From Syntrophaceae bacterium (GTDB taxonomy: Bacteria; Desulfobacterota; BSN033; UBA1163), in contig JACAEX010000075.1 of the NCBI GenBank assembly GCA_013388635.1, positions 1 through 50,233 of the forward strand: a DNA stretch of 50,233 nucleotides, given 5' to 3'. The position numbers and the translations under genes are program-made. A model generated the notes under the pieces. It made no database searches. It was given only the letters and a program-made list of their open reading frames with translations, and was not told where the DNA came from. Below are positions 3,717-41,960 of this stretch, one piece after another (the stretch's first letter is position 1; every line of letters starts with the position of its first letter).

Positions 3717-4559
3717 CTATTCCTGGACCAGACTCCGAATCACCTTCATATTCTTCAGATCCTCGACGGTATCATTTCTCGGAGTCTCCATGATTCCGGG
3801 AAGGTGTTTCAAGAGAGGGTGGTTGATGAGGTAACGGAATCCTTCGAGCCCGATATACCCCTCGCCGATATGCCAGTGTCGATCCTTTCTCGATCCAAGA
3901 GGTGTCTTTGAATCGTTGAGATGAAGGAGGTGAAGTTTCTTCAACCCGATCCTCTGATCGAAAGATTGGAGCGTGCTCTCAATGCCGTCCTTTTTCGAGA
4001 GATCATATCCCGCCTGAAAAGAGTGGGCCGTATCGAGGCAGATGCCCATCCTCTCCTTTTCCTCAACTCCGAGGATGATCCTCTCGATCTGTTCAAAGGT
4101 ATTTCCGATTTCTGTTCCCTGACCGGCTGTGTTCTCCAATAGGAGGATGACCGGATTTTTCACCCTTTGAAAGGCCTGATTGATCGCCTGAGAGACAGAT
4201 TCAATGGCCTCTTCTTCTGAGGATTCCAATCGATGGCCGATATGGATGATCAGGTACTGAGCACCGAGTTGCTCAGCTCTTTTTAGGTCTGTGGCGATCG
4301 AGTCGATCGATCGTTTGTAGAACTTCGATTTTTGAGAGGCAATATTGGGAAGGTAGGGCAAATGAAGAAAGAGGGGAAAGAGAGCGGATGACTGGATGGA
4401 GGCATGAAATCGCTCAACCTCCTCTCGATCCAACGGCTCGTACTTCCATCCCCTCGGATTTCGGGAGAAGAACTGGATGGTTTCACAACCCCGGAGCTCA
4501 GCCCTCTCGACTATCCTTGAAAACCCTCCTGAAATGGAGATGTGGAATCCAAATCGCAT
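3717..4559 (-). CDS. nfo: Endonuclease IV (AP endonuclease)
   Basis: Cytosolic DNA repair enzyme that cleaves 5' to abasic sites using a trinuclear zinc centre in a TIM barrel. The 280 residues match the family. Metal-binding segments are visible in order: FHISISGG at the start, LHLPYLPN (about 66), IIHIGHRLESS (about 106), LLLENTAGQG (about 145), CLDTAHSFQAGYDL (about 180), LLHLNDSKTPLGSRKDRHWHIGEG (read as two motifs, HLNDSK and DRHWHIGEG) and the final IMETPR. The gene is monocistronic on the minus strand, with its own promoter at 4600-4627, divergent from the formate dehydrogenase operon. Confidence 0.93.
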   Translation of the reverse strand: MRFGFHISISGGFSRIVERAELRGCETIQFFSRNPRGWKYEPLDREEVERFHASIQSSALFPLFLHLPYLPNIASQKSKFYKRSIDSIATDLKRAEQLGAQYLIIHIGHRLESSEEEAIESVSQAINQAFQRVKNPVILLLENTAGQGTEIGNTFEQIERIILGVEEKERMGICLDTAHSFQAGYDLSKKDGIESTLQSFDQRIGLKKLHLLHLNDSKTPLGSRKDRHWHIGEGYIGLEGFRYLINHPLLKHLPGIMETPRNDTVEDLKNMKVIRSLVQE

Positions 4560-8200: not shown

Positions 8201-8380
8201 GTCGATGTGCCAAAGGCTGAGGGAGAAGAAGAGGCAGCCACCTCAAAACCGAGGGCCAAGATGCCTGCGATGGATGTCAATCGCCGGGTCTGCACGTTCG
8301 AGGAAGTGAACTTAGGATTTGATGAAGAGACTGCCGTTCGTGAGGCAAAACGCTGTCTGCGCTGTGACCTCGAACGGTGA
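5264..8380 (+). CDS. NuoF-GltD fusion: diaphorase subunit of formate dehydrogenase
   Basis: A 1038-residue two-part flavoprotein. Residues about 20-110 form a [2Fe-2S] ferredoxin-like domain (CVTICGGTGC, then GCHGFC). A full NuoF follows: FMN/NAD motifs GRGGAGFPTGRKW (about 184) and CNADEGDPGAF (about 212), an SLBB segment, and the N3-type cluster SCGKCVPCRIGT (about 472) with a distal CGLGQTC. From about 560 a GltD/NfnB module begins, with PCENTCPVRC and VCGRVC (two [4Fe-4S]), FAD fold GAGPAG (about 660) and NADP-type fold GGGNVAFD (about 791) followed by YRRTRDEMPA. The TTG start at 5264 has AAGGAGG six bases upstream. The single chain could pass electrons from formate to NAD through FMN and to NADP or ferredoxin through the GltD FAD; that is inference. 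It overlaps no neighbour; fdhA1 starts 17 bases later. Confidence 0.88.
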   Translation: MKLRSDRDLVALRESILRERDPNKTCVTICGGTGCRAWGGEEVRLAFIEEIRKQGLEGKVGVMRTGCHGFCERGPVVVILPEEIFYQQVAVGDVPEIVSKTLRERRVVERLLYTDPATGRVITYDHDVPFYKGQTRLVFSDNGRIDPTEIRDYIARGGYSGLSKALFSMTPEQVIDEVEKSGLRGRGGAGFPTGRKWRFTRSSPGEVKYIVCNADEGDPGAFMDRSVLEGNPHLVLEGMLIAAYAIGAHSGYVYVRAEYPLAVQHLKIALEQAEEMGLIGDQILGSDFSFHLKIKEGAGAFVCGEETALLASIEGKRGMPRARPPFPAVSGLWGKPTNINNVETYANIRSIILNGSSAYAAIGTQGSKGTKIFSLTGKINNTGLVEVPMGTTLREVIFNIGGGIPRGRHFKAAQMGGPSGGCLPAQYLDLPIDYESLTQVGSMMGSGGMIVMDEKTCMVDIARFFLSFTQEESCGKCVPCRIGTKRMLEILTRITKGEGREEDIDLLLEMGRIIKDSALCGLGQTCPNPVLSTINYFRNEYEAHIRDRYCPAGACEALVFAPCENTCPVRCDAAGYTALISERRYEEALSLIRLTMPLAAVCGRVCTHPCENMCKRGEIDQPIAIASLKRFASDWELSSGSMAPPVFLEKPKAERVAIVGAGPAGLNAAYHLGRRGYQVSIFEALPLPGGMLSVGIPEYRLPRRNLMNDIRFICQHHVEIKTGKALGKDFNIDDLFHQGYKAIFLAMGAHKNQRMSIPGEDGPGVLPGVDFLRRVNLGEKVEVGRRVAVIGGGNVAFDAARTALRLGAKEVSIVYRRTRDEMPANDEEIEEAEHEKIKLLYLIAPVEIVRENGRVRGLLCQRMELGDFDASGRRRPIPIKGSEFLMEVETVIPAIGYVPDLSCLPLDGGFKTTKAGTLQVDPITLATDLPGVFAGGDLVTGPSTVVEAMASGYRAAISIDKYLKGQDPRRDRAYQALRRVDVPKAEGEEEAATSKPRAKMPAMDVNRRVCTFEEVNLGFDEETAVREAKRCLRCDLER

Positions 8381-8397
8381 GGAAAGGACCGAGAGGG

Positions 8398-11088
8398 ATG
8401 AAAGAGGTGATACTGAAGATCGATGGTCGTGAAGTGAGAGCCGAAGAGGGGATGACCATCTTTCAGGCGGCAAAAAAAGTGGGGATTGAAATCCCCCATC
8501 TCTGCTACCGGGAAGGCTTGGCCCCGACCGCGGCCTGCCGTCTCTGCGTTGTGGAGGTCGATGGGTCAAGAACACTCGTGGCTTCCTGCGCCTATCCGGT
8601 GGCCAACAAGATGGTCGTCCGGACAGATACTCAGCGGGTTCAGGAGGCTCGAAAACTGGCGATCGACTTTCTGCTCTCAGACCATCCCTATGACTGCATG
8701 ACCTGCGAGAAGAGCGGCTCCTGCCGACTTGAGAAATACGCTTATGAATTTGGCATTCGAAAATCGCGCTTCGAGGGCGAAAGGCATGACTACCCGATTC
8801 GAGGCCGAAATCCCTTTTTTGAGAGGGATTACAATAAATGTATTCTCTGCGGAAGGTGTGTGACCGTCTGCCACGAAGTCCAGTACTGTGAGGCAGTGGA
8901 CTACTCCGAACGGGGGTTTGCCACCAAGATTGCCGCCTTTTTCGATCGTTCGATGCAGGAGACCCCATGCGTCTTCTGCGGAAACTGTGTGAGCGTCTGT
9001 CCGGTGGGAGCGCTCTCAGAGAAGGCCGGCCGTTTTAAGGGCCGGGAATGGGAGCTTCAGAAGGTTCCGACCATCTGCTCCTATTGTGGCGTCGGGTGTA
9101 CGCTGGTTCTGAACGTCAAAGATGGAAAGGTCCTAAAGGTGACCTCGGATAAGGAGTTGGGGATCAATCGGGGCTGGACCTGTGTGAAGGGAAGGTTTGG
9201 CTTCGATTATATTCACAGCCCGGATCGCCTGACAGAGCCGCTCATCAAAAGAGATGGGACGTTTCGCCAGGCCTCGTGGGAGGAAGCACTCGACGCGGTG
9301 GCCGAGGGACTGAAGAATATCAAATCCAAGTACGGGGCCGATGCCATCGGTTTCCTCGTCTCTGCCAAGTGCACCAATGAGGAGAACTACCTTCTCCAGA
9401 AGGTCGCCCGGGCTGCCATCGGGACGAACAACGTCGACCACTGCGCCAGGCTCTGACACAGTTCCACGGTCGCCGGTCTGGCGATGGCTTTTGGAAGCGG
9501 GGCCATGACCAATTCGATCGGTGAGATCCGGAATGCCGACTGCATCTTTGTCATCGGTTCGAACACCTCGGAAAATCATCCGGTCATCGCCTTGGAGGTC
9601 AAGGCCGCGGTGAGGCAGAGGGGAGCCAAGGTCATTGTGGCAGATCCCCGGAGGATCGATCTCGTCAATTTTGCCCACCTCTGGCTGCGGCATCATCCAG
9701 GGACGGATGTGGCCCTGCTCAACGGAATGTTGAATGTCATCATCTCCCATGGTTGGGTCAATCAGAGCTTTGTCAACGAGCGCACAGAAGGATTTGAGGC
9801 CTTGGCTGAATCTGTAAAGGATTATGTTCCGGAGAGGGTCGAGAAGATCACCGGAGTGCCAGCAAAGGATATAGTCGAGGCGAGTCGACTCTATGCCCAG
9901 TCGGCCAATTCATCCGTTCTTTATGCGATGGGCATCACCCAACACGCCACTGGCACCCATAATGTCCTGGCCTTGGCAAACCTGGCCATGGTTACGGGCC
10001 AGATCGGCAAACCCTTCTCAGGGATCAACCCACTCCGGGGACAGAATAATGTCCAGGGCGCCTGCGATATGGGGGGTCTGCCCAATGTCTACACTGGCTA
10101 CCAGCGTGTCGATGATGAGGCTGTGCGGCAGAGGTTTGAGAAGGCCTGGGGCATAGCCCTCTCACCCCGACCTGGCCTGACCTTGATGGAGATGATGAAA
10201 GGGATTGCTGAGGGCAGGATGAAAGCCCTTTTCATCCTGGGAGAGAACCCTGTGCTTTCCGACCCGAATGCGGAGAAGGTGAAGGATGAACTGAAGCGTC
10301 TCGACCTCCTGGTCGTTCAGGATATCTTCCTCTCGGAGACCGCAGAGCTCGCCCATGTGGTCCTTCCGGGGGTGAGTTTTGCTGAGAAGGATGGAACCTT
10401 CACAAACACAGAGCGTAGGGTGCAGCGTATTCGCAAGGCGATCGAACCGATTGGAAACGCAAGGCCGGACTGGAAGATCATCTGTGATCTCTCCTCCCGG
10501 CTGGGTTATCCGATGAATTATGATTCTCCTCAACAGATCATGGAGGAGATCGCCTCTGTAACCCCCTCCTACGGAGGAATTCGCTACGAACGCTTAGAAG
10601 GCCTGGGACTCCAATGGCCGTGTCCATCGATTGATCATCCAGGGACTCCTTTCCTCCATAAGGACCGCTTCACCCGCGGCAGGGGAAAGTTCCACATCAC
10701 GCCTTATGCCGCTCCGCCAGAACTTCCTGACCAGGAATATCCCTTCCTTTTGACGACCGGACGGGTGCTCTACCACTACCATACCTTGATCAGCCAAAAG
10801 TCGAAAGGCCTGGCCGAAATCTATCCAGAGGGCTTGGTAGAGATCAATCCCGATGACGCCCGGCGTCTCGGAATCAAGCCGGATAACGGACTGGTGGAAG
10901 TTGCTTCCCGCCGGGGCAAGGTCAAAGCCAGGGCAAAGGTGTCGGATAACCTTCCTCCAGGGTTGGTTTTCATGACCTTCCACTTTAAAGAGGCGGCAGC
11001 CAACCTTCTGACCATCGATGTCTTGGACCCGATTGCCAAGATCCCGGAGTTCAAGGTCTGCGCAGTCAGGGTGAAAAAATTGGGATAG
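8398..11088 (+). CDS. fdhA: Selenocysteine formate dehydrogenase catalytic subunit with NuoG-like N-terminus
   Basis: Mo/W-bisMGD formate dehydrogenase, 896 residues when the in-frame TGA at 9454-9456 is read as selenocysteine (U353). The order is: a plant-type [2Fe-2S] domain ([22 protein letters not shown]), a His/Cys cluster region ([13 protein letters not shown]), two [4Fe-4S] motifs ([28 protein letters not shown]), the Mo-domain cluster ([12 protein letters not shown]), then DHCARL-U-HSSTVAG, the classic active-site context. The downstream frame continues without a break to the MGD-binding C-terminal domain (VVDP-like KVIVADPRR and [13 protein letters not shown]). ATG 8398 is chosen over GTG 8377 because it gives the family start [13 protein letters not shown]. 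It forms a soluble NAD(P)-linked FDH with the two genes upstream, able to oxidise formate or reduce CO2. It is a close paralogue of fdhA2 at 20466. Confidence 0.93.
9469..9485 (+). promoter_or_regulatory. SECIS-like hairpin for fdhA U353
   Basis: GTCGCC-GGTCT-GGCGAT: six pairs (one G-U) closing a five-base loop, with the loop starting 18 bases after the TGA at 9454-9456. The loop GGUCU matches the apical loop I recall for the E. coli fdhF SECIS. The position agrees with bacterial SECIS elements, which lie within the coding region just after UGA. Confidence 0.7.
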
Positions 11089-11228: not shown

Positions 11229-12053
11229 ATGAAATACCGAGCTCTTAGCTATTGGTCCTGCCTCGCTTCCCTTTTCCTCATTATTCTCCTTTTCAGATCG
11301 GCCTGCTGGGCTTCAACATTAGACAGAGAAGCCCTTCCCGTGCGTTCCTGGTGGATCAATATGGAGAGGTTCTTGTCATCTCCTCACGGCCGCCTCTCCT
11401 GTTCGGGATGCCATTCCTACATTGAAGAGAAGGGCGTCAAGCATCCAGACCCAAAACTCCTCGGCAAGGCCTCAACGCTTCTCTACGATTACAAGAGATG
11501 CGAGAAGTGCCATCCTGAGGAGCATCAGCGTTATCTTAAAGGGGCCCATGCCAAAGCGCTATCGGAGAAGAAGAAGGATGCGCCCACCTGTGGGCACTGC
11601 CATGTCACCCATTATGCGGCCGCGGGTCAATCTCGCCTCGAACTCGGGAAGTGGATGACCGGGATGTGCGGGACTTGCCACCCGGTCCAAAAGAGGAGCT
11701 ATCTCGAAAATTATCACGGCAAGACTGCCGTACACCTGAGGTATGAGGCATCCGCCTACTGCACGGACTGCCACGGTGCCCATACCTGCCTTTCGTTAAA
11801 AAAGAGGGAAGAGGCTCTCGAGGCGTGCAGGAAGTGTCATGCCGATGCCGGTATACGATTTACAGAATTCGTGATCCATGCCTCTCGAGAAGGGTTGAAG
11901 AAAGAGGATATCGAGAAGGTGGAAAAAGTGAGGATCATCCGATGGATCGAGATCAGCTTCGGCATCTTCGTCTTCGGGGTTTTGGCCTTCTTCTATTCCC
12001 ATACCCTGATATGGACGCTCAGAAAGATTCACGAGAGGCTAAAGAAGGGTTGA
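11229..12053 (+). CDS. Exported hexahaem cytochrome c with C-terminal membrane anchor
   Basis: 274 residues with six CXXCH haem c motifs: CSGCH, CEKCH, CGHCH, CGTCH, CTDCH and CRKCH, spread from about residue 58 to 202. A hydrophobic N-terminal segment (about 8-28, ending ACWAS) would be a signal peptide. A second hydrophobic stretch near 240-260 followed by basic residues anchors the protein in the membrane with the haems outside. The next gene, a cytochrome b/c fusion, starts five bases after the stop, so the two are almost certainly co-translated and act together. Its role is inferred as electron exchange between the periplasm and the membrane cytochrome b module. It is similar in kind to NapC/NrfH-type or Tmc/Hmc-associated cytochromes, but I cannot place it in a named family. 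Confidence 0.8.
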   Translation: MKYRALSYWSCLASLFLIILLFRSACWASTLDREALPVRSWWINMERFLSSPHGRLSCSGCHSYIEEKGVKHPDPKLLGKASTLLYDYKRCEKCHPEEHQRYLKGAHAKALSEKKKDAPTCGHCHVTHYAAAGQSRLELGKWMTGMCGTCHPVQKRSYLENYHGKTAVHLRYEASAYCTDCHGAHTCLSLKKREEALEACRKCHADAGIRFTEFVIHASREGLKKEDIEKVEKVRIIRWIEISFGIFVFGVLAFFYSHTLIWTLRKIHERLKKG

Positions 12054-12057
12054 GGCA

Positions 12058-14208
12058 ATGGCAGTGAAGGATATCCAGAACGAGGTCTACTGGAGGTTTC
12101 ATGCCTTCCACCGGTTCATCCACCTGGTGATGATGATCACCTTCGTCGGCCTCGCCTTGACAGGACTTCCCCTCAAGTATCCCGATGCCTTTTGGGCAAG
12201 GGGGCTGGTCAGCCTGTGGGGAGGCGTGAAGGCCGCAGGCCTCTTCCACCGCTGGTTTGCGGGTATCACCTTCGGTTATTTTCTTCTCCATCTCCTCTGG
12301 GTTCTCTATTACCGCTTCATCTTGAAGGGAGATCTTTTGGGAGCGAATTCCATGATCCCCTCCAAGAAGGATTTTCAAGATCTCCTCCAGCACATCCGAT
12401 ACTTTTTCGGCAAAGGCGATCCGCCCAAATTTGGGAGGTTCACGTATTGGGAGAAGTTTGACTACTGGGCTGTCTTCTGGGGAATCGCCTTTATCGGGGG
12501 TTCGGGCCTCCTGCTCTGGTTTCCCGAATTCTTCTCCCGGTTTCTGCCAGGCCTCTTCTTCAATATTGCGTACACGATTCATAGCGATGAGGCCTTGCTC
12601 GCGATGGGATTCATCTTCGTGGTCCACCTTTACAACGCCCATTTCCGATCGGGTGTCTTCCCGCTGGATCGATCGATCTTCACGGGCAAGATCGAGGCCA
12701 GGGAGATGAAGGAACGCCATCCTCTCGAATGGGAACATCTCAACCAGCATCCTGAGAAGAAGGCCAAGCTCAGGGTGCGAAAGGATCTGCTCGCTCTCTT
12801 CCTGATCATTCTCTTGAGCGGACTCCTCCCCTCTTTCTCCTCTGCCCAGGGAGTGACAGAGGAAGAGATCATGGAGGCAGAGAAGAAGTTCTGCTGGAAA
12901 TGTCATCGTCAGCCGAACTTGAACAGCACAGAAGGCGTGATGACCTCCATCCTTCTTTGCATGAACTGTCATCGGAAGAAGGATGTGGAAAAGAAGGTGG
13001 ATGGGAAACTGGTCTCTCTCTTTATCGATGAAAAGGAGTACGGGAAGACAATCCATCGAAGGATCGCCTGCATCCAATGTCACGTCGGGATTGCCACCTC
13101 CCCTCACCGGACGACATCGATGGCGTGTGCCTCCTGTCACGGATTCCATGGCGAGGCGACCGCTCATGATCCTCATCGCCGTGTCAACTGTGAGGCTTGC
13201 CATCACGAGTCAAAAGAAGTGATGAGAGATCCGAAGACCGGAAGCATCGTCCTGAGAATGGTGAAAGACGGAGTTCCGATCCAGATGACGTCGCATCGGC
13301 TGACCGATTTCAGGGATAAGAGGGCATGCGAAAAATGTCATTTTGAGAAGAATCAGCTGGGGGCGCCGGTCCGCGTCCTTCCCGCCAAGAGCGTGATCTG
13401 CATCGGATGCCATAGCGCTACGATCGGCGCCGGAGATCCGATCTCCATCCTTGCCCTCCTGTTATTCGGGGTGGGCATCGTTCTGACGATCTCCTTCTGG
13501 TTTCAGGGGACCGTGGGTGACCCATCCTTCTCCACCCATGAAAAGATCTCCTATATCGCTGAGAAGATCTGGCAGGTCATCTTCTCGAGGAGGATTCTCA
13601 CTCTCCTCAGGGTCCTCGTGGTGGATGTCCTCCTTTTGAGAAGAATCCTGAAGGAGAGTTTGAGTCGATGGACGATCCACAGCCTGATCTACCTTCCCCT
13701 ATTCCTCCGCTTCTTCATCGGCTTGGTTCTCCTCTTCCTTTCCAAGGCCTTTCCGATGAGTCCTAAGACCGCCGTTCTCCTCGACAAGAACTATCCTCCC
13801 ATGGCCTTCGCCTACGATCTCTTAGGTCTATGTATTATCATTGGAACTGGCGCGGCGATGATGAGGCGTTTTCAAAATCGAGCACAGAAGGCCATACCAG
13901 GAGGACAGGATTATATCGTCATCGGTCTGATCGGAGCTATCTTGATCACAGGGTTTTTGGTGGAGGGGATGAGGATCCTCCTGACCGGGATCCCGGCCTT
14001 TGTTGCGATGGCGTCCTTTCTCGGGTACCCGCTCTCACTCTTTCTCAACCTCTTCCCCATTCGCTGGGAAGGGCTCTATCCGTATGCCTGGTATGCCCAT
14101 GCGATTCTGACCGGGGTGCTGGTCGCCTACCTTCCCTTCAGCAAGATGTTCCACATCCTCATTGATCCTCTTGTCTTCGTGGTGAAGGCGTTCTCGAGGG
14201 AGAGATGA
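12058..14208 (+). CDS. Cytochrome b / heptahaem cytochrome c / NarI-like cytochrome b fusion
   Basis: A 716-residue membrane protein of three parts. Residues about 1-225 form a four-helix dihaem b-type cytochrome (FdnI/cytochrome b561-like; conserved His in HAFHRFIHL, HRWFAG, HLLW, HLYNAHF). After another hydrophobic segment (about 240-262) there are seven CXXCH motifs between about 280 and 452: CWKCH, CMNCH, CIQCH, CASCH, CEACH, CEKCH and CIGCH. The last 260 residues hold about five more membrane helices resembling the NarI/DsrM/HdrE cytochrome b type. The next gene is a DsrK/HdrC-like Fe-S protein, as expected for a NarI/DsrM-type partner, and overlaps the stop by four bases (ATGA). The likely role is to carry electrons between quinone or periplasmic haems and the cytoplasmic Hdr proteins. 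I do not know a characterised protein with this exact order. Confidence 0.78.
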   Translation: MAVKDIQNEVYWRFHAFHRFIHLVMMITFVGLALTGLPLKYPDAFWARGLVSLWGGVKAAGLFHRWFAGITFGYFLLHLLWVLYYRFILKGDLLGANSMIPSKKDFQDLLQHIRYFFGKGDPPKFGRFTYWEKFDYWAVFWGIAFIGGSGLLLWFPEFFSRFLPGLFFNIAYTIHSDEALLAMGFIFVVHLYNAHFRSGVFPLDRSIFTGKIEAREMKERHPLEWEHLNQHPEKKAKLRVRKDLLALFLIILLSGLLPSFSSAQGVTEEEIMEAEKKFCWKCHRQPNLNSTEGVMTSILLCMNCHRKKDVEKKVDGKLVSLFIDEKEYGKTIHRRIACIQCHVGIATSPHRTTSMACASCHGFHGEATAHDPHRRVNCEACHHESKEVMRDPKTGSIVLRMVKDGVPIQMTSHRLTDFRDKRACEKCHFEKNQLGAPVRVLPAKSVICIGCHSATIGAGDPISILALLLFGVGIVLTISFWFQGTVGDPSFSTHEKISYIAEKIWQVIFSRRILTLLRVLVVDVLLLRRILKESLSRWTIHSLIYLPLFLRFFIGLVLLFLSKAFPMSPKTAVLLDKNYPPMAFAYDLLGLCIIIGTGAAMMRRFQNRAQKAIPGGQDYIVIGLIGAILITGFLVEGMRILLTGIPAFVAMASFLGYPLSLFLNLFPIRWEGLYPYAWYAHAILTGVLVAYLPFSKMFHILIDPLVFVVKAFSRER

Positions 14209-15080
14209 AGGTCGCAGGCTGGCTCAGATCCTTATCAAAGATCATCCATTTGAAACGGTTCTCCCGGACGTGGATGGGGAAGCAGTTGACGATGGTCCAG
14301 CTGATGGAGCTGGACGCGTGCATGCATTGCCGGACCTGTAGTTCTCAGTGCTCTGTGGCCGTGGCCTTTGAGGGGATCCCGAACATCAAGATCCTTCCCT
14401 CAGAGAAGATCGCGTCGATTCGAGCTCTGGCATCAGGAGATGGATTGACTGAACGAGATCTGAGGGAGCTTCAGGAAGGTGCCTATCTGTGTACGAACTG
14501 TTACCGATGCACAGTGGTCTGTCCCGCGGGGATCGACCTCCAGAAGTTATGGTTTCGTGTGAGGGAGATTCTCCTCCAGAGGGGAACGCCAGAGTTTCTC
14601 CTCCTCTCGCCCCTCTCATTTTATCGGGGGTTGATGAAGGAAGACATGGACCAGAGGGATTATGAAGAGCCTTTGATCCGAGCGAGGGAGGCCATGGCTG
14701 CCGGATGGGAGCTGATCCGTGCAAAGGAGAAGGCCCTGCCCCTGACGCCAAAGGATAAAAGATTTCAGGATAAGCTCGGTCTTTCTGCCCAGGCCAAGAC
14801 CTTCTCAGTCTGCTTTGGCTGCAAGACCTGCACCACGGTCTGCCCGGTGGTGGCCAACTATGAGGATCCCCAGACCGCCCTGGGCCTTCTGCCCCATCAG
14901 ATTATGCATGCCTGCGGGCTGGGGATAAGGGACCTGGCCTTTGGTTCAAATATGCTCTGGGACTGTTTGACCTGTTATCAGTGTCAGGAACAGTGTCCCC
15001 AGGGGGTTTATGTCACCGACGTGCTTTACGAACTCAAGAACCTGGCGATGAGAGAGGTCAAGGAGAAGACGTGGCGATGA
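14205..15080 (+). CDS. Double HdrC-like iron-sulfur protein
   Basis: 291 residues with two HdrC/DsrK-type units in one chain. The first has CMHCRTCSSQC (about 39-49) and CTNCYRCTVVC (about 100-110); the second has CFGCKTCTTVC (about 204-214) and CLTCYQCQEQC (about 257-267). Each unit could carry two [4Fe-4S] clusters. There is no signal peptide, so it is cytoplasmic and membrane-associated through the preceding cytochrome b. It overlaps that gene by four bases and is overlapped by hdrB (ATG 15077) by four bases, indicating tight translational coupling. Expected role: shuttling electrons between the membrane cytochrome module and HdrB/HdrA. No CCG domain is present here; that is supplied by the next gene. 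Confidence 0.82.
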   Translation: MKVAGWLRSLSKIIHLKRFSRTWMGKQLTMVQLMELDACMHCRTCSSQCSVAVAFEGIPNIKILPSEKIASIRALASGDGLTERDLRELQEGAYLCTNCYRCTVVCPAGIDLQKLWFRVREILLQRGTPEFLLLSPLSFYRGLMKEDMDQRDYEEPLIRAREAMAAGWELIRAKEKALPLTPKDKRFQDKLGLSAQAKTFSVCFGCKTCTTVCPVVANYEDPQTALGLLPHQIMHACGLGIRDLAFGSNMLWDCLTCYQCQEQCPQGVYVTDVLYELKNLAMREVKEKTWR

Positions 15081-15946
15081 AGTTTTCATTATTTCTCGGT
15101 TGCACGATTCCAGCGCGGCTCAACCAGTACGCCTCCGCCTCAAGGGCGGTTCTGGAGGAGCTGGGCGTGGAATCGGTCGAGATCGGGGAGTTTAACTGTT
15201 GTGGATACCCTTTGAGGAATATCGATTTCAAGGTCTTCCTTCTGTCATCTGCTCGTAATCTGGCCCTCTCTGAGAGGAGAGGCCTCCCAATCATGGCCCT
15301 CTGCCAGTGTTGCTATGGCAGCCTGAAGAAAGCCGACCACCTTTTGAAGGAGGATGCTTCCTTACGCAACGAGGTGAATGCGAGCCTTGAAAGGGAGGGC
15401 CTCAGGTATGAAGGAGGGATTGAGGTCAAGCACCTCCTCCAGGTTCTTCATCAGGAGGTGGGGATCAAGGCGATTAAGGAGAGGATCGAAAAGCCTTTCA
15501 AGGGGCTCAGGATTGCAGCGCACTATGGGTGCCATGCCCTCAGGCCAAGTCGGGTCGTCCAATTTGACGATCCGGTGGCTCCCTCCTTGTTCGATCAACT
15601 GATCGAAGCGACGGGCGCCGAGGCCGTGGACTGGTCGATGAAAGCCGACTGCTGTGGTGCTCCACTCTGGGGAGTAAACGATGGGCTTTCGATCGATCTG
15701 ACCCTGAAGAAATTGACGGACGGAAGGAGATCAGGCGCTGATTATCTCTGTACTGCGTGCCCCTACTGCCACATCCAGTTCGACAAGGTTCAAAAGATGA
15801 TTCTCTCTCAAAGGGACCTGAACCATCCGCTTCCGTCGATTCTCTATCCGCAGCTTCTCGGCCTGAGCCTGGGGATCGATCGCAGGCTCTTGGGACTGGA
15901 GATGAATGAGATTTCTCTCAAGGGGATCGAGGAACGGCTGGCATAA
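15077..15946 (+). CDS. hdrB: HdrB-like subunit with two CCG domains
   Basis: Heterodisulfide reductase subunit B-like, 289 residues. Two complete CCG (CX(n)CCGX(n)CXXC) motifs are visible: LGC, FNCCGYP and CQCC in the N-terminal half, and YGCHA, DCCGAP and CPYC in the C-terminal half. In methanogens these bind two noncubane [4Fe-4S] clusters that reduce CoM-S-S-CoB; in bacteria the disulfide substrate is generally unknown. ATG 15077 (overlapping the hdrC-like stop) is preferred to upstream codons because it gives the standard MKFSLFLGC start and follows AGGAGA at 15061. Confidence 0.88.
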
Positions 15947-20465: not shown

Positions 20466-22517
20466 ATGGAGTTCAAGACCGTTCTGACCACCTGTCCTTA
20501 TTGCGGCTGCGGCTGTGGGTTGCTGCTCGAAATCCTGGACGGAAGGCTCATAGGGACGCTTCCATCCAAAACCAGCCCTGTGAATCAAGGGAGGTTGTGT
20601 GTGAAGGGCTGGAGCGTTCATGAATTTGTCACAAGCCCGAACCGTCTGATCCGACCCTTGGTGAGAAAGGCCGATAGGCTTGTGGAGTCGTCATGGGACG
20701 AGGCCCTGGACCTTTCTGCCCGGCGACTCAAAGAGATTAAAGAGAGGCATGGCCCTGACAGCATTGCTGTGCTGACCTCTGCCAAGTGCACCAATGAGGA
20801 GAACTACCTTCTGCAGAAATTGACCCGGGCAGCGATCGGGACGAACAACATCGATCACTGCGCCCGTCTCTGACACTCCTCCACGGTGGCCGGGCTGGCC
20901 GCTTCATTTGGCAGTGGGGCGATGACCAACTCCATAGAAGAGATTGAATCTGCCGATTGCATCCTGATTTTTGGCTCCAACACCTCGATCGCCCATCCCT
21001 TGATTGCCACCCGCGTCTTTCGTGCGAAGGCAAGGGGCGCCAAGGTCATCGTGGCCGATCCGCGAAAGATCCCGATCGTCCTTCAAAGCGACCTCCATCT
21101 TCAGCATCGACTTGGAACGGACGTGGCTCTGATCAATGGTCTGATGCATATCATTCTGAAAAACGGATGGGAGAGAAAGGCATTTATCAGTGAACGGACG
21201 GAGAACCTTGAGGAGTTCAGAAAGGTCGTGGAGAAGTATTCCCCGGATCGCGTTTCTGAGATCACCGGTGTTCCGGTGAAGGATCTGGAGACGGCTGCTC
21301 AGTATTATGCCAAGGCGGAGCGAGGAAGCATCCTGTACACGATGGGCATCACCCAGCATACCACAGGTGTGGATAATGTGAAATCCCTTGCCAATCTCTC
21401 GATGCTCACCGGGAACATTGGCAGGGAGTCGACCGGTGTCAATCCCCTCCGGGGACAGAACAACGTCCAGGGCGCCTGCGATATGGGCGGGCTGCCAAAT
21501 GTCTACTCCGGCTATCAGCCCGTGACCGATCAGGCCGTCAGGCAGAAATTCGAAGAGGCCTGGAGGGCTGAGCTTTCGGCCAGGGTCGGATTGACAGCCA
21601 CGGAGATGTTCCCGGCGGCCCTCGAGGGCAGGGTCAAGGCCATGGTCATCCTGGGTGAGAATCCTGTTCTGAGCGATGCTGACAGCCATCATGTGGAAAA
21701 GGCGTTGGAGGCCCTCGATTTTCTCCTGGTCATCGACATCTTCAATACGCCGACCTCTGATCTTGCTCACGTGGTTTTAGCCGGAGCGTCCTTTGCAGAG
21801 AAGGAAGGGACCTTCACCAATACGGAGAGAAGGGTTCAGATGGTTCGAAAGGCGATCGAACCTCCAGGGGATGCCAGGGTCGACTGGAGAATCATCCAGG
21901 AGCTTTCGAACCGTCTTGGATACTCAATGGATTACGACTCCCCTCGGGCTGTCATGGAAGAGATAGCGAGGGTCACTCCCTCCTACGCTGGCATCCGTTA
22001 TGATCGACTCCAGGGCGATGGCTTACAATGGCCCTGCCCCAGCACAGATCACCCGGGGACCAAATTCTTACACCAGGGCAAGTTTACGAGGGGGAAAGGA
22101 CTCTTCAGTGCGATCGAATACAAACCGCCTGCTGAAGTGGCGGATGAGGCATATCCGTTCCAGCTGACAACCGGAAGGATTCATGTCCATTACCATACGG
22201 GCACGATGACGAGGAATTCTCCTTCGTTGGAACGGGAGGTCAACGAATGCCTTCTCGAGATCAATCCCGAGGATGCCCGGGAGCTTGGAATAGGCGAGGG
22301 TGATCGCGTCCTGGTCTCCTCGAGGCGGGGTTCTGTCTCAACGAGGGTAAAGTTGACAGAGACGGAGAAGAGGGGAACGGTGTTCATGCCATTCCATTTC
22401 TTTGAAAGCAGGGCGAATATCCTGACCAACCCAATGTTTGATCCTGTTGCCAAGATCCCGGAATTCAAGGTCTGCGCTGTAAAGATCGAGAAGATGGAGA
22501 CTGGATCAGCCCGTTAA
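20466..22517 (+). CDS. fdhA: Selenocysteine formate dehydrogenase catalytic subunit, Hdr-linked
   Basis: Short FdhA of 683 residues without the NuoG-like N-terminal domains. It starts MEFKTVLTTCPYCGCGCGLL, the [4Fe-4S] motif of the Mo/W domain. TGA 20871-20873 is Sec (U136) in DHCARL-U-HSSTVAG. A catalytic-site Lys/Cys context ([13 protein letters not shown]), KVIVADPRK and the MGD-binding C-terminal domain (QLTTGRIHVHYHT) are all present. It is a close paralogue of the catalytic part of fdhA at 8398. The gene ends the Hdr operon: fdhB is directly upstream and a new promoter for nuoA follows. It is expected to oxidise formate (or reduce CO2) and pass electrons through FdhB and MvhD to HdrA. 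Confidence 0.93.
20886..20902 (+). promoter_or_regulatory. SECIS-like hairpin for fdhA2 U136
   Basis: GTGGCC-GGGCT-GGCCGC: six pairs (one U-G), five-base loop starting 18 bases after the TGA at 20871-20873. Same position and geometry as in fdhA1, although the bases differ at several sites. Confidence 0.65.
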
Positions 22518-39054: not shown

Positions 39055-39255
39055 TCAGCTGAATCTGGACGAACCGCCCGATGGACCGCAGGTAGAAGTC
39101 GATTCCGATCCCTTGGAAAAGAACCCTGAGAGAATCCTTTCAGGTTTCTCCTCTCCGCAGTGGGGACATCGCAGCGACTCACCTGCCTCGCTCACCTTCT
39201 GAATCTTCTCAAAAACCTCTCCGCATTTCCGGCATCGATATTCGTAAATAGGCAT
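39055..39255 (-). CDS. FmdB-type zinc-ribbon protein
   Basis: Small putative regulatory protein of 66 residues. It starts MPIYEYRCRKCGEVFEKIQ with AAGGAGGG upstream, has CRKC (about 8-11) and CPHC (about 32-35) forming a zinc ribbon, and ends in a Ser/Gly-rich tail. The family (FmdB, CxxC_CXXC_SSSS) is named after the regulator of amide/formamide use but its function is generally unknown. The last codons lie within a direct repeat also found 88 bases downstream, perhaps a duplication end point. Confidence 0.8.
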   Translation of the reverse strand: MPIYEYRCRKCGEVFEKIQKVSEAGESLRCPHCGEEKPERILSGFFSKGSESTSTCGPSGGSSRFS

Positions 39256-39397
39256 ACATCCCTCCTTTTTAATAGCATAGAGCATAGCGGAAGACGATAG
39301 GAACCAAACATAAACAAATCCCAATGACCGGAATCCGAAATCCTGAACAAACCCGTTTGGGTAATTTGTGAATTGACATCTGAAATTTTCTTGGGAT

Positions 39398-40402
39398 TTA
39401 GGATTTGGGATTTGAAATTACTTCATATCCTGCTTCTTCGATCGCCTTGTCGATTCGATCGGATGGGATCGCCTTCGTATTCTCAAAACGGACCTCTCCG
39501 CTTTGAAGATCTACCTGGACATTCTGAATCCCTTCCAGTTGACTCAATGCTCTTGTAACAGACATCACACAGTGCTGACAGCTCATCCCCTTCACTCTTA
39601 TGATGGATGGCATGGTATTTCCCTCCTCTTCTGGTTTTGTCTCCTTGACCTCCGGAGCCGTCATGACCTTCCCATTTTCCTCATTCTCAACTTCAGCCTC
39701 AGCGTGAACCTGTTTTCTCTCAATCAATCCCCTCTTCTTTAGATCCTCGTACCAGAGGGTATGTCGCTCCTTCACATAATCCAGATCCACCTCTCCTGTG
39801 AATATCGATTTCGTCAGGGGCCGATTCACCTTGAAGATCAATGCAGACAGATGGGCCAACACTCCGATGAGAAAGAAGATCGTCCCAAAGGTATGCGTCA
39901 GCGTCATCGAAGTAACCAAAGGCGGAGGGAGATAGACGCCTGGCAGATTCTTGATGACCTTTACCAATCCGGTCAGAACCAGGACCGATCCGACACCGCC
40001 TAAATAGGCATAGGCAAGCCGTTGCTCAGGAAGATATTTGTCCGATTTGGGCTCGTTCCCCAATCCGAACATGCTCAGAATGGTCACGAAAGAGGCCTTC
40101 AGATCTCCCCTTCTCGGCAGAAGGCCCCGATGCCCAAGCCATCCATGATAGAGGGCGTGAAAGACCATCACGGAAACAAAAACGATCCCTGAGAGATAAT
40201 GAATCTTCAGGTTGATGAAGAAGTCTCCTGCCCAACCCAGGCCGGGAATCTTGGTCACCATGAATCTTTTGTACATGGGAAGCTCACCGAATCCGGAGAA
40301 GATCAGCATGAGACCGGAGAGAGCGAGAAGCCAATGCTCTGCGAGCTCAACGAAAGTGTGGCGAAGAACAGCCCTTCCTCCTTTCACGATTCTCTCGTTC
40401 AT
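39398..40402 (-). CDS. Cytochrome b (FDH gamma-like) fused to a heavy-metal-associated domain
   Basis: 334 residues from ATG 40402 (AAGGAGGAGAGG upstream, overlapping the Fe-S gene stop by four bases). The first 240 residues are a four-helix dihaem cytochrome b like formate dehydrogenase gamma (RHTFVELAEHWLLALSG, HYLSGIVFVSVMVFHALYHGW, HTFGTIFFLIGVLAHL). After a charged linker (about 245-265) comes a 70-residue HMA domain with the metal site VKGMSCQHCVMSVTRAL, the fold of copper chaperones such as CopZ. Such a fusion is unusual. The Fe-S partner is encoded just upstream; no molybdopterin catalytic subunit is near. The protein could move electrons between quinone and the Fe-S protein, with the HMA domain binding a metal or acting through its dithiol; the purpose is unknown. 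Confidence 0.8.
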   Translation of the reverse strand: MNERIVKGGRAVLRHTFVELAEHWLLALSGLMLIFSGFGELPMYKRFMVTKIPGLGWAGDFFINLKIHYLSGIVFVSVMVFHALYHGWLGHRGLLPRRGDLKASFVTILSMFGLGNEPKSDKYLPEQRLAYAYLGGVGSVLVLTGLVKVIKNLPGVYLPPPLVTSMTLTHTFGTIFFLIGVLAHLSALIFKVNRPLTKSIFTGEVDLDYVKERHTLWYEDLKKRGLIERKQVHAEAEVENEENGKVMTAPEVKETKPEEEGNTMPSIIRVKGMSCQHCVMSVTRALSQLEGIQNVQVDLQSGEVRFENTKAIPSDRIDKAIEEAGYEVISNPKS

Positions 40403-41391
40403 GACCTCTCCTCCTTCTCCCTCTGCCTTCGATGAAAGAGGGCAAGACCAAGGGCACCTACAGCTCCGATGATCGGGCCGATCAGAAAACCCTTTGCCCA
40501 TCGATTGGCCTCACGGAGCGGATTTAGAACCTTTCCCATGAGCAGATTCGATTTGGCCTCTTTCAATTTAGAATCGATCTTTTCAAATGGGATTCTGCTC
40601 ACATAGAGCGTGGCAGTTCCGCCATTTTCCTTCTCTCCGTAGATGAATCCGTTGATCTCCCTGGCCCTCTCATGGGCCATCCTTAAGATCTCCTCTCTCC
40701 TTCCAAAGGAAAGAGGCTTTTTTGATCCCGGTCTCCTTTCACACGCCTCAACACAGGCTGGCGGTTGGCCATTTTTGATCCGATCGTGGCAGAGGTCGCA
40801 TTTATACATCACCCCTCCGCCAGCGGGCATGGGTTGGAGCTTAAGATAGATACCCACGCCGCTCTGCCTCTGCGGGATATGCCAGGGACAGACAGCCTTA
40901 CATTTGGCTCCTCCCAAACAGAGATTGGGATTGATCACGACCGAACCATCCGCGTACTTGTTCAGGGCGCCAAAGGGACAGAGATGGGCACAGGGAGGAT
41001 TGTCGCAATGCATACAGCGACGGGGGACAAAGACCTTCTCTCCCTCGACTTCTACTCTCTGAACGGTCGTCCAGTTGTAGGGGGTGAGCTGGTCGATGAC
41101 ATCCCTCTTTTTCGACCAGTCGTCATGCGTCTTTTGGGGCCAGAGATCCTTGATCGGCTCTTTCGGGGTCGGGAATCTTCTCTCGTTCACCGCGCGGCAA
41201 GCCTCCACACATTTGGGCATGGGCTCGCTCGTGCATCCATCGCACCGGGTCAGGTCGATGAGTGTGGCATAGGTTCCAGATTTCGCCCAAGCCTCCTTTG
41301 CCATCCCCGAAGCAACGGCCACCCCCAAAGCGGTCACCATCGCTCCGTTCTTCAAAAAGGACCTTCTTGATAATTCACTCTTCTCTTTCAT
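40399..41391 (-). CDS. Tat-exported four-cluster ferredoxin (HybA/FdhB-like)
   Basis: 330 residues. A twin-arginine signal (RRSFLKNGAMVTALGV, about 9-24) is followed by four [4Fe-4S] motif groups: CDGC...CVEAC, CMHCDNPPCAHLCPFGA, CLGGAKCKAVCP and CDLCHDRI...CVEAC. A C-terminal hydrophobic helix (about 297-318) before RRQREKEERS would anchor it. This matches the electron-transfer subunit of Tat-exported molybdoenzymes or hydrogenases. It is followed by the cytochrome b-HMA gene (four-base overlap) and preceded by a CsoR-like regulator. A catalytic alpha subunit is missing from this locus. Confidence 0.85.
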   Translation of the reverse strand: MKEKSELSRRSFLKNGAMVTALGVAVASGMAKEAWAKSGTYATLIDLTRCDGCTSEPMPKCVEACRAVNERRFPTPKEPIKDLWPQKTHDDWSKKRDVIDQLTPYNWTTVQRVEVEGEKVFVPRRCMHCDNPPCAHLCPFGALNKYADGSVVINPNLCLGGAKCKAVCPWHIPQRQSGVGIYLKLQPMPAGGGVMYKCDLCHDRIKNGQPPACVEACERRPGSKKPLSFGRREEILRMAHERAREINGFIYGEKENGGTATLYVSRIPFEKIDSKLKEAKSNLLMGKVLNPLREANRWAKGFLIGPIIGAVGALGLALFHRRQREKEERS

Positions 41392-41514
41392 CGACTCATC
41401 TCCTTCACAACTTCACGCATCTTTTCTTCCTAAGGGCAAAATCCATCAAATTTACGATTCATATAAAAAGACGCTATGCACTGCGCATGCCCTCTGCGCT
41501 TTCTGCCCTTCGTC

Positions 41515-41796
41515 CTACGCCCAATCGATATATCGGGAGATCGCCTTCTGGAAATCCCTTAAAGTTTCCCCCTGTTTGAGAGCGGGGTCCCTCTGAGTCT
41601 TCTCCAGACATTCTTCCATGTAGGTCTGGACAATGACGGCCCCGACCTTTTTGATGGCGGCCGTCACCGCGGCCACCTGTGTCAAAATATCAGGGCAGGG
41701 AGTCCCCTGTTCTACCATCCTCTGAAGCCCACGCATCTGACCTTCGATCTTTCTTAACCTCGACAGGATATCCTTTTTCGGGCCTTCGCTGCTCAT
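41515..41796 (-). CDS. CsoR/FrmR-family repressor
   Basis: 93-residue DUF156 protein starting MSSEGPKKDILSRLRKIEGQ; ATG 41796 is chosen because upstream in-frame codons run into the operator. The family's first cysteine is present (GTPCPDIL) and so is the second (MEECLEK), but the copper-ligand His four residues before the second Cys (HxxxC in CsoR) is Tyr here (YMEEC). CstR-type persulfide sensors also lack that His, so a sulfur-species sensor is as likely as a Cu(I) sensor. It probably controls itself and the Fe-S/cytochrome b-HMA genes downstream. Confidence 0.82.
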   Translation of the reverse strand: MSSEGPKKDILSRLRKIEGQMRGLQRMVEQGTPCPDILTQVAAVTAAIKKVGAVIVQTYMEECLEKTQRDPALKQGETLRDFQKAISRYIDWA

Positions 41797-41798
41797 AC

Positions 41799-41817
41799 TA
41801 TACCCCCCTATGGTATA
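41799..41817. promoter_or_regulatory. Candidate CsoR-type operator
   Basis: Palindrome TATACC-CCCCTAT-GGTATA, read on the plus strand, ending three bases before the regulator start codon and overlapping its ribosome binding site. The G/C-rich centre with flanking TAT(A)CC arms resembles the operators of CsoR/CstR repressors, so autoregulation is likely. Confidence 0.6.
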
Positions 41818-41960
41818 ATTAACTTTAATCCCTCCTCCGCCCTTTGTCAATAGGAAAATCGATCCGGTTGCAATCCCTTACTCCTCCGTGAAAACTTCCC
41901 AGGATCGGGCGGGGATGTTCCCACCCGATGGCAGCCTTTCTCCACGCTTCAGTGAGGCAC

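Follow-up and report, generated by a model that had tools for sequence, protein, structure and literature searches.

The window analysed here is a stretch of 50,233 nucleotides, whose minus strand carries a cassette of three genes, all of them confirmed, for a CsoR-like regulator, a Tat-exported ferredoxin and a cytochrome b fused to an HMA domain. All features of this cassette lie on that strand and are given in the order of their transcription. A sigma-70-like promoter (TTGACA-17-TAAAGT; 41822..41850) precedes csoR, and TTGACA together with an AT-rich second hexamer recurs upstream of csoR in relatives. Between its -10 box and the csoR start lies the predicted operator TATACCATAGGGGGGTATA (41799..41817) with the inverted TATACC/GGTATA, which also recurs 5' of csoR in relatives. 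The csoR-like gene (41515..41796) encodes a repressor of 93 amino acids and is followed by the gene of a 330-aa ferredoxin (40399..41391) with a Tat signal, four cluster motifs and a C-terminal hydrophobic helix. The third gene (39398..40402) codes for 334 amino acids, namely an FdnI-like cytochrome b (residues 1-225; PF01292, 62 bits), a linker and the HMA domain (residues 264-334; 55 bits). Ferredoxin and cytochrome genes overlap by ATGA, and the start of the latter is most likely in this overlap, at 40402, and not at 40501, where the longer open reading frame begins. Inside the cytochrome gene, a Shine-Dalgarno sequence AGGAGG (39622..39627) stands 8 nt upstream of an internal ATG at 39613, from which the HMA domain is predicted to be made as a free CopZ of 71 amino acids (39398..39613; MPSIIRVKGMSCQHC...). 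A scan of the cassette found no terminator-like site between its genes; a terminator-like hairpin, recognised by consensus match only, was placed 3' of it (39315..39337). An FmdB-like zinc-ribbon gene comes next (39055..39255). The genes flanking the cassette differ among relatives, the FmdB-like gene being often found 3' of it (e.g., in L011, L079 and L123); it is probably a syntenic neighbour outside the mechanism of the cassette.

A search for cytochrome b-HMA fusions and their neighbours revealed the same three genes, HMA domain included, in all ten named relatives (Syntrophaceae, Deltaproteobacteria and Thermodesulfobacteriota MAGs). Within the window's own family, matches were obtained in 14 of the 17 genomes, comprising 13 cytochrome-HMA fusions, one of them cut inside the HMA domain by a contig end, and a single case (G302) of HMA alone. 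The first-pass annotation had allowed for an assembly fusion, with the HMA domain absent from all close homologues; since the fusion is kept in frame in ten of ten named relatives and in 13 distinct genomes of the family, an origin in assembly or annotation was ruled out.

At the level of the phylum, a relative of the cytochrome (E below 1e-30) is present in 34 of 297 genomes, and the ferredoxin adjoins it in each of the 30 loci inspected; plasmid-borne relatives were not detected at 1e-30. Pairs that lack HMA or csoR are found across the phylum, and the comparison of 31 neighbourhoods gave no other widely shared gene around it. Outside the csoR-bearing group the pair is not flanked by conserved genes; the group to which the window belongs has csoR as a conserved neighbour. 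In relatives from families f21 and f22, csoR and the pair are present and the fused HMA domain is absent, with no separate HMA found near these pairs either. In the tree of the concatenated pair, csoR-bearing forms of f1, f21 and f22 group together, and the HMA-bearing forms are placed among them.

Histidines H23, H68, H170 and H184 of the cytochrome are invariant and align with FdnI, where we take them to match the heme ligands (1kqf). In the structural model of the cytochrome-HMA protein (mean pLDDT 84.7) the linker is disordered and the HMA fold is modelled with confidence; the Foldseek matches of this model were 1kqf_C and CopZ. The HMA domain has the CopZ-type fold with the motif GMSCQHC (GMxCxxC), and its best matches are Cu(I) chaperones and domains of Cu-ATPases, in concordance with its earlier designation as copper-chaperone-like. 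The C-terminus of FdnI is cytoplasmic and the HMA domain follows the C-terminus of the cytochrome, so that by analogy it should be located on the cytoplasmic side of the membrane. The ferredoxin is marked for export by a twin-arginine signal (SRRSFLK, with R9 and R10 invariant). The delivery of Fe-S electrons directly to the HMA dithiol, initially suggested for this locus, is therefore unlikely, as homology to FdnI places the two on opposite sides of the membrane.

The cluster cysteines of the ferredoxin number 15, not 16. Its motif III reads C[FLMV]GGAKC[KR]xxCPW in all 35 aligned relatives, and in each of them, as in the window (C158-GGAKC), the second cysteine is replaced by glycine (Gly161). 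In the alignment to FdnH this residue falls on a cluster cysteine, and it presumably corresponds to NarH Trp220, the residue at the [3Fe-4S] cluster of that protein. We therefore predict, close to the membrane, a cluster that is either [3Fe-4S] or oddly ligated. The ferredoxin model (pLDDT 62), which shows the C-terminal hydrophobic helix (residues 293-329) at low confidence, is too poor for placing this cluster. It should be added that the extended signature C[FLMV]GGAKC[KR]xxCPWxIP[QE]RQxG occurs in every relative of this orphan module that was examined and could be used to search for the module.

The window genome contains no PF02583 gene besides the csoR-like one, which also applies to nearly all genomes of the family, and the operator pattern, with up to one mismatch allowed, has a single match in the whole window genome, at csoR. 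We also considered other genes as being under the same operator; only csoR matched, and extra matches in relatives stayed at the level of the reversed control. With a sole CsoR-family gene and an operator occurring once, the regulator is, as judged from sequence, private to the cassette. CopA (C15) is encoded elsewhere in the window genome, outside this operator control. The protein was earlier described as an unusual member of the CsoR family, which the PF02583 match (92 bits) and the arrangement C34-Y59-C63, lacking the Cys-His-Cys Cu(I) site of CsoR, bear out. Both cysteines are constant, and the position of the copper ligand is occupied by Tyr in the window, by His in five members and by Asn in L039, the latter as in the solved CstR-like chain 7mq1. 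The missing copper-ligand His is thus real in the window, but it is not a constant feature of the family. Taking Tyr-for-His as proof against copper was rejected as too weak, since regulators of both types serve the same cassette. In L011 (2969-3250), csoR belongs to the His-bearing clade, although the ferredoxin and cytochrome of this locus group with those of Tyr-bearing relatives, which hints at an exchange of csoR between cassettes.

Two candidates for the effector of this regulator are Cu(I) and sulfane sulfur; of these we favour copper, given that the partner kept throughout the family is CopZ. In the alternative reading, persulfide or polysulfide would be sensed by a CstR-like two-cysteine repressor, the pair would couple the quinone pool to sulfur chemistry in the periplasm, and the HMA domain would buffer thiols or metal in sulfide-rich cells. 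This is the most serious of the alternatives, albeit on balance an unlikely one. It draws on Tyr and Asn at the ligand position, and on the existence of CsoR-family regulators of sulfur metabolism besides CstR (TTHA1953, PMC10318464). A persulfide role of the regulator is possible, moreover, because a paralogous His-bearing csoR in G081 (L122:3253-4660) precedes a YeeE/YedE (PF04143) sulfur transporter and because the pair of L039 is followed by a gene for a periplasmic rhodanese; a rhodanese is also encoded upstream in L037. The cassette of the window itself contains no sulfurtransferase or other sulfur-handling gene. Against the sulfur reading, these rhodanese and transporter links are single cases, the constant partner in the window's family is CopZ and not a sulfurtransferase, the HMA domain bears a Cu(I) motif, and the ligand position is His in five members. 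As a separate observation, sat-like and PAPS-reductase-like genes come next after the transporter in G081, the genome of which has no redox pair.

Returning to the copper reading, the way in which the chaperone is joined to the cytochrome deserves attention. The linker is 40-54 amino acids long, comes in ten different lengths and is only 34% identical, the cytochrome core reaching 83% and the HMA domain 72%. Its frame is never broken among the fusions, though the other frames hold many stops, and half of the sampled linker codons are one step from a stop. Given that the frame is kept across ten linker lengths, the fusion itself seems to be under selection. Within this otherwise unconserved linker, all 13 distinct fusions have an in-frame start codon before the HMA domain (10 ATG, 2 GTG and 1 CTG), preceded by a purine-rich Shine-Dalgarno sequence, i.e., a conserved translational signal for the chaperone alone, as in genes of the CopA(Z) type. 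The information content amounts to 2 bits at positions -10/-9 and at the second and third base of the start codon, as compared with about 0.5 bit per base in the linker. The summed Shine-Dalgarno energy is -141.9, a value that no synonymous recoding out of 2000 reached (-99.3 +/- 10.4); this comparison overstates the significance, since related sequences are taken as independent. In single sequences the energy is not significant, owing to a linker rich in Glu and Lys. In the window, the internal site has a predicted energy of -12.5, as against -11.7 for the start of the cytochrome itself, and is thus the stronger of the two.

The conserved start codon, as well as two natural deletions, are independent of this energy test. 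Two genomes, G302 and G167, have lost the pair and carry a stand-alone CopZ gene behind csoR. The first codons of the ferredoxin remain in G302 (L079), followed by the Shine-Dalgarno sequence and the CopZ start (ATG at 2648), whereas in G167 (L123) csoR is separated from CopZ (ATG at 4343) by about 80 bases. The gene surroundings of both loci agree with those in relatives carrying the whole cassette, and these two are the only stand-alone HMA genes in the 17 genomes of the family. As the deletions spared CopZ together with its start, it is kept, and presumably made from the corresponding start, in the absence of the pair. Selection in this part of the gene points to two putative products, and it is very probable that one gene gives both the cytochrome b-HMA protein and a free CopZ. 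Neither the internal start, which should give the free chaperone, nor the two relatives with CopZ alone behind csoR had been noticed in the first-pass annotation.

The tether might also be passive: a former csoR-ferredoxin-cytochrome b-copZ operon would have lost the stop codon of the cytochrome, the free CopZ would do the copper work, and the pair, merely co-induced, would serve an unrelated periplasmic reaction. Such a history would agree with the strong internal start having been retained, with CopZ occurring without the pair in G302 and G167, and with the pair occurring without HMA or csoR across the phylum. Nevertheless, a fusion of no consequence should have been lost in some lineages, while the frame of this poorly conserved linker, so close to stops, is intact throughout, and no relative showed the presumed precursor, in which a separate copZ would come after the pair. 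We therefore regard a passive tether as improbable.

As for the electron partner, the initial view that the pair stands alone was upheld, since the search for a catalytic subunit beside it gave none in approximately 30 loci, including the window and its relatives. That the pair represents the beta and gamma parts of an exported molybdoenzyme (of the formate dehydrogenase or thiosulfate/polysulfide reductase type) with a catalytic subunit encoded elsewhere in the genome is very improbable: the subunit types do match FdnH and FdnI and every pair-bearing genome tested has some PF04879 protein, but no catalytic gene is adjacent, the Fe-S protein bears a Tat signal itself and is one cluster cysteine short, and a search of G206 and G245 (96-97% complete) recognised no exported molybdoenzyme in trans, as their PF04879 proteins are without a Tat signal and look cytoplasmic. 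The formate-dehydrogenase-like genes of the window are on the other strand, at least 17 kb away, have no Tat signal and possess partner genes of their own.

Some further redox genes were observed along the way. Each of the two formate-dehydrogenase-like catalytic genes of the window (8377-11088 and 20466-22517) is interrupted by an in-frame TGA where selenocysteine would be expected, and both adjoin Nuo- and Hdr-like genes. A separate redox cluster (11229-15946) consists of a c-type cytochrome, a 716-aa protein starting like cytochrome b and two HdrC/HdrB-like genes. In G251 (L028:1236-2537), another cytochrome b of this orphan pair has a C-terminal domain that by eye resembles a GNAT acetyltransferase, without a start codon at the junction.

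We propose that the locus is an autoregulated chaperone cassette, induced by a thiophile and combined with a quinone-linked redox pair. Thiophilic stress, most likely an excess of cytoplasmic Cu(I), would be the signal. The CsoR-family repressor would sit on the one operator and shut off its own transcript until its two-cysteine site is loaded, whereupon the transcript of the cassette would be made. This transcript would give the quinone-linked pair, i.e., the exported Fe-S protein and the FdnI-like cytochrome b, with the CopZ-like domain tethered at the cytoplasmic end of the latter, and the same CopZ would be released in free form through the internal ribosome-binding site. The free CopZ would deliver Cu(I) to CopA, which is encoded separately, and the tethered one would keep Cu(I) at the membrane, next to the cytochrome; the pair would pass electrons between menaquinone and an acceptor in the periplasm, which might be copper. 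We hold this full copper reading as the leading one, while rating its chance as slightly below even. Counted against it were Y59 in place of the copper-ligand His, CopA being outside the operator, the opposite membrane sides of the Fe-S protein and the HMA domain (the latter placed by homology to FdnI), the f21 and f22 relatives having csoR and the pair without HMA, and the csoR paralogue before a sulfur transporter. In its most specific form, menaquinol, via heme b and the exported Fe-S protein with a [3Fe-4S] cluster, would drive a Cu(II)/Cu(I) step, the same gene would give tethered and free Cu(I) chaperones by internal initiation, and the whole would be under a private repressor; we find this version rather unlikely.

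If a copper-dedicated redox module were true, it would be the first function assigned to a widespread orphan Fe-S/cytochrome b module. The pair is here tied to one repressor and to a chaperone with testable metal chemistry, and its inducer can therefore be sought directly; a known but functionless respiratory module thereby gains a testable link to copper or sulfur stress.

The suggestion that the system may be undescribed does not hold for the pair as such, which has been reported as the C-tail Fe-S protein/cytochrome b module, widespread and of unknown function (PMC10924467). Shared with it are the Tat-exported, tail-anchored multi-cluster ferredoxin beside an FdnI-like cytochrome b and the lack of a conserved neighbour, whereas the dedicated csoR-like repressor with its operator, the CopZ fusion and the internal start are additions of the window, none of which appears in that paper. 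In the literature searched, we found no paper on a cytochrome b-HMA fusion with CsoR; the known parts, an orphan redox module, a chaperone fold and a repressor family, occur here in an arrangement that we did not find described. With formate dehydrogenase-N (FdnGHI; 1kqf) the pair has in common the cytochrome fold, the four heme-ligand histidines and an FdnH-like Fe-S subunit, and it differs in being without a catalytic subunit, in the Tat signal of its Fe-S subunit and in 15 instead of 16 cluster cysteines, the four [4Fe-4S] ligand sets of the enzyme not being complete here (Gly161).

The regulator shares with CsoR and CstR the DUF156/PF02583 fold, two conserved cysteines and a G-rich pseudo-palindromic operator that overlaps the promoter, though it has Tyr in place of both the His of CsoR and the Asn of CstR. 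Fe-S proteins that reduce copper do exist, namely CcoG and the CopZ of Archaeoglobus fulgidus (PMC7558416); the candidate likeness is Fe-S electron transfer tied to Cu(I) chaperoning, while the architecture is unrelated and the Fe-S subunit of the window is periplasmic. As in CopZ/Atx1 chaperones, the HMA fold bears GMSCQHC and stands alone in two relatives, but in the window it is fused to a membrane cytochrome and probably also free from the internal start. E. coli copA is one gene that gives two proteins (Meydan 2017 and Drees 2017, as cited in PMC7558416), CopA and the free chaperone CopA(Z). There the chaperone arises by a programmed frameshift from the N-terminus of an ATPase, while here internal initiation is predicted at the C-terminus of a cytochrome, which would constitute another route, besides frameshifting, to a free copper chaperone from the gene of a membrane protein.
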